Of a stretch of DNA of 64,000 nt, positions 20,346 to 24,545 are shown one piece after another (the stretch's first letter is position 1; the number at the start of each line of letters is the position of its first letter). The notes under the pieces are model-generated. The model was given only the letters and a program-made list of their open reading frames with translations, had not been told where the DNA came from and made no database searches. A program made the position numbers and the translations under genes. This DNA is from Candidatus Bathyarchaeia archaeon (GTDB taxonomy: Archaea; Thermoproteota; Bathyarchaeia; Bathyarchaeales; Bathycorpusculaceae). The stretch is from NCBI GenBank assembly GCA_030019335.1, contig JASEET010000003.1:35390-99389 (forward strand), given 5' to 3'.

Positions 20346-20720
20346 ATGCCGAAGAAAGGCTACACGGGCATATCGCTAAAGACAGAGGTTGCAGAGCTGC
20401 TAAGGTCCAAAGCAAAAGCCAGCAACATGGGCTTAAACGATTACTTAACAGGCATACTGATAGGACCGTCCCAACTATGTATCGAGGACCGTCCCGGGAC
20501 CGTCCCAACCCTTCAAAACCACGCTTCTACACAGCTTAGAGAAAAGCCTGAAAACAGCTGCTTTTCAAAAAACCAGCAAGAAACAATGGTGGGGCTGCCC
20601 GGATTTGAACCGGGGTCCTTCCCGCACAGCCACAAGGCTGCACTTAGAGAGCCCAAGTCTCCAAGCCTAGACCAAGCTAGCCGACAGCCCCATGCATTAT
20701 CTTTTCATTTTGAAGCCTAA
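20346..20720 (+). CDS. integrase N-terminal part int(N), running into attR
   Basis: N-terminal part of the split integrase. Residues 1-40 (YTGISLKTEVAELLRSKAK, then SNMGLNDYLTGIL) look like a ribbon-helix-helix, possibly for arm-site binding. From 20590 the frame runs through the tRNA-Pro repeat in antisense, in the same frame as int(C) at 6847, and ends in chromosomal DNA at 20720. Joining the two parts over the 75-bp repeat gives a protein of about 395 residues. GGGAGGT lies eight bases before the ATG. The residues after about 106 are encoded by host sequence and are not part of the original protein. Confidence 0.8.
   Translation: MPKKGYTGISLKTEVAELLRSKAKASNMGLNDYLTGILIGPSQLCIEDRPGTVPTLQNHASTQLREKPENSCFSKNQQETMVGLPGFEPGSFPHSHKAALREPKSPSLDQASRQPHALSFHFEA
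20463..20506. repeat. three copies of GGACCGTCCC next to attR
   Basis: GGACCGTCCC occurs at 20463-20472, 20486-20495 and 20497-20506, within int(N) and 84-127 bases from the attachment repeat. Each copy is itself nearly palindromic. Short repeats at such a distance from the core are what arm-type integrase sites look like. Confidence 0.5.
20590..20664. repeat. attR: 75-bp direct repeat inside the intact tRNA-Pro
   Basis: Second copy of the 75-bp repeat at 6847-6921, identical at all positions. It is part of the complete tRNA gene 20590-20691, so integration at this end kept the tRNA functional. Confidence 0.92.
20590..20691 (-). tRNA. tRNA-Pro (TGG) with a variable-region insertion
   Basis: Acceptor strands GGGGCTG (complement of 20685-20691) and CAGCCCC (complement of 20591-20597) pair, with discriminator A at 20590. 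T-arm CCCGG-TTCAAAT-CCGGG is normal. The anticodon loop CTTGGGC within GGAGA/TCTCT gives anticodon TGG with U33 and G37. The gene is 102 nt long because about 26 extra bases lie between the anticodon stem and T-stem; they form a hairpin (GCAGCC-TTGT-GGCTG-TGC), best read as a non-canonical intron. Proline fits better than glutamine (TTG), which would need C33. It is the attachment site of the integrated element. Confidence 0.85.
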
Positions 20721-20787
20721 AAATAAATGTTCCCTAACTTTTAAACTCTTATCCCTCATAATATCTACTACTGGAGGCTTAGTAGGC

Positions 20788-23004
20788 TTGTCTCATTCAC
20801 GTCGATTACACGGAGTTAAGGTTCTGAAAGCTATTTCGTCATCTATTAGGCTGCAAATTTTAAACTTGCTTTTTGATAAGGGACCTCTTTCCTATACTGA
20901 GTTAATGAGTTCGCTGAAAATGAATCCAAGCAGAGATGCTGGAAGGTTCGCCTATCACTTGAAGTTCCTGCTTAAAGCAGATTTAATTGAGGCAGATGTG
21001 GAAGCTAAGAAGTATCGTTTAACCGAGTTAGGTAAGATTGTTATTGACGTTGCAGAGGAAATTGCAAAGAAAGCCTTTAAGCCAAGAAAAACGCTTGTCC
21101 GCACCTCTCACTCTGCACTAGAGGAATTTGATGCGAACAAAATTACAGATTCCCTTACAAGGGAAGCAAACATGCCTGCGGAGTTAGCTCAAAAAGTAGC
21201 CAAAGAAGTGGAGAAACGGCTGCTTAAATCTAAAACGAAATATTTGACAGCCCCCCTTGTAAGAGAAGTTGTAAACACTGTCTTAATCGAGAAAGGTTTA
21301 GAGGAATACCGCCATAAACTCACACGTTTAGGACTCCCAGTTTACGACATCTCCACTCTTGTAGAGACAAAAAGTAAAGCTTCTCAAGGGTCAGCCTCCA
21401 TACATGAGACTGCTGGAGAAATAGTTCTTAAAGAGTATATGCTTCTAAACATATTCCCAAGAGACATCGCAGACGCAAATTTATCCGGTTTGCTACACAT
21501 CAACGGTTTAAGTTACTGGGTTTTAAAGCCAAGCGAAATAATGCATGATTTAAGATTTTTCTTCAAAAATGGCTTAAACTTAGAGAAAATAAACGCTTTT
21601 CAACCATCTTATCCCCCGCCTAAAAGCTTGGATTCTGCTCTATCCACAACCTTTAATGTTCTTCTGCATTCCGCTAAAGAAGTGGGCGAAGCACAAACGC
21701 TTGATTACTTTAATGTTTTTCTCGCCCCCTTTGTAAAGGGCATAGAGTCTTCAAAGATTAAAGAGGCTTTACGCCTATTCATTTCGAACATAAACCAACA
21801 CGTGCCTTCCGTCTCTTTGGGCTTGGAGCTTATGATTCCAGATTCCATGGCCGAGAAACAAGCCATCGGGCCTCTTGGTAAGAGATTAGATAATTATGGT
21901 GACTTTAGCGAAGAGAGTCAACTTATTGCATCTCTTCTTTTCGAAATTTTCGCCGAAGAAAGCGTGCACAAACCGTTGCTTAATCCAAGAATTATTGTAA
22001 AGATACATCCAGAAACTTTTGCAAATGAAAAGGCAAAGACATTGCTTTTGCAAGCGCATCGCCTAGCGACGGAAAAAGGCATCCCATACTTTGCAAACCT
22101 TTTGGGGAAAGAGCCAGAAAACAGTGTTTTCTCAGCTTCTGGCTTTAGGCTTAGGGCGGATTTAATGGGAGACTGGGAAATTGACACTTTACGCACAGGC
22201 AGCTTGGGATGTGTGACGATCAATCTGCCGCGGATAACGTATGAGTCTAAAAGAGACGAGACAAAGTTTTTTGAAATTTTGAAAAAGAGACTTGAGATGG
22301 CAACGCGTGCTTTGGAAATTAAGCATAGAGCGCTTAAACAGAATGGCAAAGGTTTACTTCCATTTCTGATGCAGAACGTTGACGGCGACCAATATTTCAG
22401 ACTTGAATACTGTTCTCGTCTGATAAACTTGGTAGGATTAAAGGAAGCGGCGGAAGCATTTCATGGAAAAAACATTTGTGATGATGGAAAAGCCTTGGAG
22501 TTTGCGCAGCAAATAACGCAACACATTTTGGCGTTCACACGTAAAATTGGTAAGAGACGTGGAAAACGTTTGACACCAGCCCTACTACCAAGCTTTAAAG
22601 CTTCAGAAAGATTGGCACAGTTAGACATTGAAAGATACGGCATCGCGAAGGTTCGATTTTCAGGAACGAGAGAAAAGCCGTTCTACTCAACTGTTAACAA
22701 GCTAACCCTTCAAGACGGAGAAATTCCTCAAGAATTTTTAAAGGTTGAACGGAAACTGCGTGGGTTGCATGCTGGTGGATGTCTAACAGTAATAGAGCTT
22801 GGAAAAGCTGAACACAGTCCAGACGAGCTTATGTCTCTAACAAAGCAGATTGTCGAAGACTATGGAATAGAATTTTTCACATATGACCGCCAATTAACCT
22901 ACTGTCTCAACTGCAAAAGATGTTGGTTCGGCTTATTACATAAATGTCTCTCATGCGGAGCAACAAGCACACTAACAGTTTTCAATCGATTTGCATCAAC
23001 ATAA
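20788..23004 (+). CDS. NrdD-like protein with N-terminal winged helix and ATP-cone, no glycyl radical site
   Basis: About 738 residues from a TTG preceded by GGAGG; an ATG at 20692 directly abuts the tRNA and is unlikely. Region 1-90 is an ArsR-like winged helix (VLKAISSSIRLQILNLLFD, then AYHLKFLLKADLIE). Region 100-190 looks like an ATP-cone (RTSHSALEEFDANKITDSL). The rest follows the anaerobic ribonucleotide reductase fold (LSGLLHINGL, GSLGCVTINLPRI) and ends in a CLNC...CLSC zinc ribbon. Where NrdD has the RVxGY glycyl-radical motif this protein ends TVFNRFAST. It is likely a nucleotide-sensing regulator derived from the reductase, not an active one. No activase gene is beside it. Confidence 0.75.
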   Translation: MSHSRRLHGVKVLKAISSSIRLQILNLLFDKGPLSYTELMSSLKMNPSRDAGRFAYHLKFLLKADLIEADVEAKKYRLTELGKIVIDVAEEIAKKAFKPRKTLVRTSHSALEEFDANKITDSLTREANMPAELAQKVAKEVEKRLLKSKTKYLTAPLVREVVNTVLIEKGLEEYRHKLTRLGLPVYDISTLVETKSKASQGSASIHETAGEIVLKEYMLLNIFPRDIADANLSGLLHINGLSYWVLKPSEIMHDLRFFFKNGLNLEKINAFQPSYPPPKSLDSALSTTFNVLLHSAKEVGEAQTLDYFNVFLAPFVKGIESSKIKEALRLFISNINQHVPSVSLGLELMIPDSMAEKQAIGPLGKRLDNYGDFSEESQLIASLLFEIFAEESVHKPLLNPRIIVKIHPETFANEKAKTLLLQAHRLATEKGIPYFANLLGKEPENSVFSASGFRLRADLMGDWEIDTLRTGSLGCVTINLPRITYESKRDETKFFEILKKRLEMATRALEIKHRALKQNGKGLLPFLMQNVDGDQYFRLEYCSRLINLVGLKEAAEAFHGKNICDDGKALEFAQQITQHILAFTRKIGKRRGKRLTPALLPSFKASERLAQLDIERYGIAKVRFSGTREKPFYSTVNKLTLQDGEIPQEFLKVERKLRGLHAGGCLTVIELGKAEHSPDELMSLTKQIVEDYGIEFFTYDRQLTYCLNCKRCWFGLLHKCLSCGATSTLTVFNRFAST

Positions 23005-24080: not shown

Positions 24081-24545
24081 ATGAGCGAAACAGTATTACA
24101 TGTTTCTAAAATTAGAAACGGCACAGTCATTGATCACATCACGGGTGGACATGCGTTGGATGTTGTGAAGATTTTGGGGATAACTTGGCGGGAAAAAAGG
24201 GTTATCACTATCGCGATTAATGTGCCGAGTAAACGTTTCAAAAGAAAGGATATCGTTAAGATTGAGAGTAGGGAGTTAAACCCGCAGGAAGTGCATAAGA
24301 TTGCTTTGTTGGCTCCTCATGCGACCATTAACATTATCCGTGATTATAAGGTTGTGGAGAAGCAGAGAGTCAAGCTGCCAAAACTTATTGAGAGCATTGT
24401 TAAGTGTGCTAATCCAGCTTGTATAAGTAACAGCAACGAGCCTGTGCAAACCAAATTTTACGTTGAAAGTGAGGACCCACTACTGCTGAAGTGTCACTAC
24501 TGCGGCTATATTATGGAGAAGAAGGATGTGCTTCAGCAGTTTTAG
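24081..24545 (+). CDS. pyrI: aspartate carbamoyltransferase regulatory subunit
   Basis: 154-residue nucleotide-binding regulatory chain. The N-terminal half has the allosteric domain (VSKIRNGTVIDHITGGHALDVVKILGI) and the C-terminal half has the zinc site, CANPAC followed by CHYCG (C-x4-C ... C-x2-C), which contacts the catalytic chain. Length and order are typical. It diverges from pyrB. A seven-base inverted repeat covers its ribosome site. Confidence 0.95.
   Translation: MSETVLHVSKIRNGTVIDHITGGHALDVVKILGITWREKRVITIAINVPSKRFKRKDIVKIESRELNPQEVHKIALLAPHATINIIRDYKVVEKQRVKLPKLIESIVKCANPACISNSNEPVQTKFYVESEDPLLLKCHYCGYIMEKKDVLQQF

Follow-up and report, generated by a model that had tools for sequence, protein, structure and literature searches.

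Within the bathyarchaeal DNA analysed here, a stretch of 64,000 nucleotides that we refer to as the window, lies a gene whose product most likely serves as a gene regulator descended from the very enzyme under its control. Our sequence comparisons strongly support the conversion of a reductase scaffold into a putative DNA-binding regulator of ribonucleotide reductase (RNR) genes, and we consider it probable that this protein, which we refer to together with its family as R, is a transcription factor derived from an archaeal class III RNR (NrdD), switched by nucleotides and controlling both the downstream RNR gene and its own. This reading is based on a dead active site, a recognition helix more conserved than any other part and a position upstream of nrdD or nrdJ, together with the presence of R in aerobes that lack NrdD and of phased operator-like arrays in both promoters in one family of ammonia-oxidising archaea. 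No description of the R family was found in the literature searched.

Start site and domain organisation

The host genome is bathyarchaeal, and nearly all of the close relatives that it has in a named collection are Candidatus Bathyarchaeota MAGs. The best start of the R gene is a TTG at 20788, since a Shine-Dalgarno-like GGAGG lies 14 bases upstream, an in-frame ATG at 20692 abuts the divergent tRNA-Arg gene, and orthologues start at the equivalent position. The gene and its predicted domains are laid out as follows:

20788..23004, + strand: winged-helix, ATP-cone and pseudo-NrdD gene, 738 aa, with the TTG start shared with orthologues
20821..21048, + strand: ArsR-type winged helix (DUF7347/HTH_5, aa 12-87), from Pfam, Foldseek and conservation
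21097..21309, + strand: ATP-cone-like domain (aa 104-174), with lid VRTS and not V.KRDG, from Pfam and motif comparison
21394..22989, + strand: ten-stranded barrel fold of NrdD (class III RNR; aa 203-734), from Pfam, the AlphaFold 2 model and Foldseek
20591..20682, - strand: tRNA-Arg(TCT), divergent from the R gene and conserved in most host-family loci

A preliminary description of the protein, made from its letters, had proposed an ArsR-like winged helix, an ATP-cone-like region and an NrdD fold with its zinc ribbon, all of which were borne out by profile searches. The winged helix scores 29 bits against PF01022 (cut-off 22) and 33.6 bits against PF24038 (cut-off 27.6), the ATP-cone PF03477 matches aa 104-174 with 35 bits, which is over its cut-off even though KRDG is missing, and the NRDD profile PF13597 matches aa 203-734 at 8e-76, ending at profile position 538 of 562, with the four zinc-ribbon cysteines present. 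Structure prediction, which that description had suggested as a check, gave a model with a mean pLDDT of 85 from an alignment of 25 orthologues. When compared using Foldseek, this model matched the solved NrdDs of S. thermophilus, P. copri, T. maritima and T4 (E 1e-28 to 1e-18; TM-score by target up to 0.75), while its N-terminus matched HlyU/SmtB/CzrA separately from the NrdD body. A model of an orthologue from ammonia-oxidising archaea (AOA) had a pLDDT of 49 and was too poor for use.

Conservation across the 25 orthologues was uneven, with identities of 78% in the winged helix, 79% in the ATP-cone and 57-66% in the barrel, and reached its peak for the whole protein in the recognition stretch (aa 47-66; 90% mean identity). 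Because identity is highest in these regions, the DNA-binding and cone parts appear to be those under the strongest selection. The lid of the cone carries RTS in place of KRDG, a change common to the nearest NrdDs; the ligand of the R cone is therefore uncertain, and the cone is a candidate nucleotide sensor. NrdD-like sequences on viral contigs (L242-L246) also match the R family, from about the cone onward and without a winged helix: three of the five matches begin at the cone, and none extends over the winged helix.

Loss of catalytic residues

The window protein retains the NrdD fold and has the following replacements at catalytic positions, beside an intact set of zinc-ribbon cysteines:

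21496..21507, + strand: HING, replacing the substrate-binding HxHD motif
21535..21537, + strand: Glu250, replacing the beta-1 catalytic Cys (T4 Cys79, T. maritima Cys125)
22141..22146, + strand: Gly452-Phe453, replacing the SCCR finger-loop Cys pair (T. maritima C329/C330; T4 C290)
22903..22956, + strand: zinc-ribbon Cys706/709/720/723, invariant in the 41 bathyarchaeal orthologues counted
22984..23004, + strand: NRFAST-stop, where NrdD has the radical-glycine loop SRVxGY

The earlier observation that the protein ends where the glycyl-radical motif belongs proved correct, its C-terminus (...TVFNRFAST) lying at the SRVxGY position of NrdDs. What had been missed is that the window protein also lacks the beta-1 Cys, both SCCR cysteines and HxHD. 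To judge by these residues, it is a dead reductase. The beta-1 stretch reads KPSEIMHDLRFF in the window protein, with Glu, and RPFCQEHDLRFF in NrdD, with Cys. In T. maritima NrdD, C329A and C330A are each inactive (PMC4493059).

Residues were counted in 72 R members (41 bathyarchaeal, 15 other and 16 from AOA) and in 16 intact archaeal NrdDs. The radical-glycine motif RVxGY was found in none of the 72 R members and in all 16 NrdDs, a Cys in the beta-1 region in 3 of 72 against 16 of 16, and the first SCCR Cys in 1 of 72 against 16 of 16, this position being Gly in 40 of the 41 bathyarchaeal members. HxHD is degraded across the R family and the four zinc cysteines are retained. The second SCCR position, that of the radical Cys (T4 C290), varies across the family, the window protein having Phe453; a universal loss of the radical Cys was rejected, as 16 of the 41 bathyarchaeal members have Cys there. 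In a phylogenetic tree, a single branch (support 100/99) separates the R family from NrdD, and the residue losses mark a monophyletic family that spans bathyarchaeal and ammonia-oxidising archaeal lineages.

A chance open reading frame, or a truncated or frameshifted NrdD pseudogene, was likewise rejected, since full-length orthologues of 42-77% identity are present in most of 60 relatives, nearly all without an internal stop and with the same end. Judged as an NrdD enzyme, the window protein has the NRDD fold, lacks RVxGY, the radical Cys and the beta-1 Cys/HxHD, and scores 267.5 against TIGR02487, under the cut-off of 326.35.

Gene neighbourhood and promoter elements

An RNR gene was found in the fetched flank of 25 of 146 R loci, downstream and on the same strand in every case. 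Some of these loci represent the same genome twice over and the rest are mutually related; they do not count as 25 separate, independent occurrences, but several families and different RNR classes are represented among them. The RNR genes lie 131-899 bp from R and comprise 20 nrdD genes of several sequence types and five class II nrdJ genes, with a glutaredoxin-like gene between R and nrdD in several loci. One R-linked nrdD (L044) carries a Pfam intein splicing domain. Conserved neighbourhoods of this kind are evidence of association, not of regulation. Some genomes have an intact nrdD gene alongside R. By contrast, in all ten AmoA-bearing genomes tested, which belong to three families, R is the only NRDD-family gene, true NrdD is absent and the single class II RNR gene, nrdJ, lies directly downstream of R; in one of the AOA families, f17, R is present in 57 of 61 genomes. 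As the sole NRDD-family gene there, beside nrdJ, R cannot be an NrdD subunit in these ten genomes.

Around the R gene of the window, the following neighbours and promoter element were annotated:

20728..20745, + strand: candidate operator and TATA box of the R promoter, TGTTCCCTAAC-TTTTAAA, single copy in the window's genome
23027..23977, - strand: pyrB (aspartate carbamoyltransferase), convergent with the R gene and conserved across many lineages
24081..24545, + strand: pyrI (aspartate carbamoyltransferase regulatory chain), part of the conserved R-pyrB neighbourhood

In most bathyarchaeal loci, and in several distant families, R is followed by a convergent pyrB, often accompanied by pyrI, which comes either immediately after R or past an intervening (grx-)nrdD unit. 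This pairing is a second tie to nucleotide metabolism, with no promoter shared between R and pyrB because pyrB is convergent; why the pair, with pyrI beyond, has been kept among archaeal lineages so far apart is not obvious. On its other side, the R gene shares a 105-bp promoter region with tRNA-Arg(TCT). As the preliminary description stated, no activase gene is adjacent to R in the window.

We then searched the promoters for repeated elements. In family f17, counted in 18 sequences whose proteins are under 90% alike, GATC occurs 68 times upstream of R, compared with 16.7 ± 3.8 in dinucleotide shuffles, and 44 times in the R-nrdJ gap, compared with 15.6 ± 3.3. Of 96 pairs of these sites, 36 are 10-12 or 20-22 bp apart, whereas random placement gives 9.8 ± 2.8; such phasing is as expected for a protein bound along one face of the DNA. 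In eight genomes, picked because their R locus has such sites, a genome-wide scan found the phased triple-GATC pattern concentrated at the R locus, its level elsewhere being low and roughly that of a reversed-pattern control. Bound promoters near nrd genes, which the preliminary description had suggested seeking, have candidates before both R and nrdJ in f17, and the same arrays are absent from the other two AOA families examined, f49 and f46. A single operator common to the whole R family was not found. In bathyarchaeal genomes, the R-nrdD gaps share TTATAC/GTATAA repeats (20 against 2.6 ± 1.6), which may in part be TATA boxes. Within the window's family, an R promoter element, TGTTCCNTAAC, is conserved and adjoins the TATA box; taken together with that box it occurs in 7 of 13 family genomes, once in each and at the R promoter in six of the seven, and it is not repeated at the nrdJ or nrdR-nrdD promoters of the family.

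The host family is also set apart by possessing NrdR, which, among 300 genomes of the phylum, scored over its cut-off in each of the 23 host-family genomes sampled and nowhere among the remaining 277. The window protein does not match the NrdR model TIGR00244, and in its genome the only match was a separate nrdR on another contig (C8), directly upstream of an intact nrdD. The nrdR-nrdD promoters of the host family contain inverted repeats of the TAGTGT/ACACTA type that resemble NrdR boxes, and those upstream of nrdR are conserved across the family. On C8 (L045 4709-8936; L215-L234), nrdR, nrdD and a radical-SAM-like reading frame, nrdG-like from its start and position, lie in a row as a probable acquired cassette. 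The simplest reading is that the host family gained an NrdR-nrdD cassette and that the pseudo-NrdD regulator stayed. The intact nrdD of the window's genome (L045, C8 5191-8247, + strand) is lengthened by an inserted segment of about 300 aa, probably an intein, which matches LAGLIDADG weakly, and some class II nrdJ reading frames of the host family (L162, L163 and L179) are about 1,060 aa long, compared with 700, which suggests inteins.

A proposed reductase-derived regulator and its alternatives

R shares with NrdD (PF13597, TIGR02487) its fold, the position of the ATP-cone, the barrel and the zinc ribbon, so that the homology is clear, and the window protein differs from it by the absence of the radical Gly loop, beta-1 Cys, SCCR pair and HxHD and by the added winged helix. 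The N-terminus shares its fold with ArsR/SmtB/HlyU proteins (PF01022); these are stand-alone dimers of about 100 aa, whereas in R the winged helix is fused to an RNR body. Like R, NrdR joins a DNA-binding module to an ATP-cone and is found beside RNR genes, which suggests the same job for R. NrdR is a protein of about 150 aa with a zinc ribbon for DNA binding, whereas in R an ArsR winged helix and a cone of non-canonical type are combined with an entire NrdD barrel. R would work like NrdR without being NrdR, and is an NrdD homologue that fails as an NrdD enzyme. The likeness to NrdR drawn in the preliminary description was therefore apt as a comparison, but has to be set against the genuine NrdR beside nrdD in the host family and the cone that lacks KRDG. 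In the same way, its core idea of a regulator made from a reductase fits the dead site, the RNR linkage and the arrays, but no RNR target was identified in the window's genome. Among known regulators, B. subtilis PurR is also derived from an enzyme, combining a phosphoribosyltransferase fold with a winged helix. The resemblance is one of principle, an inactive pathway enzyme with a winged helix that senses pathway metabolites; the enzyme, pathway and domain of life are different, and homology extends only to the winged-helix principle.

Under the proposed mechanism, an ancestral archaeal class III RNR would have lost catalysis and been joined at its N-terminus by an ArsR-type winged helix, while the dimer scaffold, together with the ATP-cone and the NrdD barrel, would have been retained for sensing and oligomerisation. 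Binding of ATP or dATP (the most likely ligands), and possibly of a dNTP at the specificity site as well, would alter the quaternary state, this would change the binding of paired winged helices to phased operators, and operator binding would in turn switch the downstream RNR gene and the R gene itself. We infer that the winged helix binds the GATC arrays, that the cone and barrel sense nucleotides, and that R represses rather than activates. The nucleotide-driven oligomer switch is a model borrowed from NrdR, in which dATP/ATP alters oligomeric state and DNA binding (PMC9110341).

The retained barrel, the dimeric nature of NrdDs and the 20 loci in which R adjoins nrdD would also suit a regulatory pseudo-subunit that forms a heterodimer with active NrdD for allosteric control, its winged helix serving protein interaction or being vestigial. 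This is quite unlikely, given that AOA have R without NrdD and with class II NrdJ only, that no part of R is better conserved than the recognition stretch of its winged helix, and that RNR-linked promoters of one AOA family hold phased arrays. It is highly improbable that R is a working class III RNR that receives a glycyl-radical domain in trans, as pyruvate formate-lyase does from YfiD, even though the zinc ribbon and barrel are retained and 16 of 41 bathyarchaeal members have a Cys where the radical residue would be: the beta-1 Cys, first SCCR Cys and HxHD are also lost, Phe occupies the radical position in the window protein, intact nrdD genes coexist and aerobic AOA retain R. A separately encoded glycyl-radical partner, which the preliminary description had named as evidence against its proposal, would not rescue catalysis when these other residues are gone.

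The window's own family raises a further alternative, in which R mainly regulates non-RNR genes, whether of the pyrimidine or general nucleotide pool or as a metal or redox sensor of the ArsR kind. Convergent pyrB (with pyrI) is the most widely conserved context, window included, an ArsR-type helix is combined with a zinc ribbon, and this family has no RNR gene adjacent to R; its nrdD has its own NrdR together with sites that resemble NrdR boxes, and the R element recurs at no RNR promoter, the last two points weighing against RNR control there. We nevertheless regard this alternative as unlikely, because an adjacent RNR gene is always immediately downstream (25/25), AOA tie R to nrdJ in three families, and the convergent pyrB shares no promoter with R.

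Returning to R as a regulator of RNR genes, it is possible, as a more tentative extension, that the family represents reductase-made RNR regulators found widely across the phylum, predating the split between bathyarchaeal and AOA lineages and standing in for NrdR wherever it is missing. A retained NrdD dimer could read both activity-type and specificity-type dNTP signals, and in this way the balance of the dNTP pool, not just dATP/ATP.

The control of dNTP supply is poorly known in archaea without NrdR, and R is a direct candidate for this role, in AOA lineages included. In these archaea, aerobes among them, a gene may match the anaerobic RNR profile without being a reductase. If the proposal is true, R would be a clear case of an enzyme turned into a transcription factor of its own pathway.
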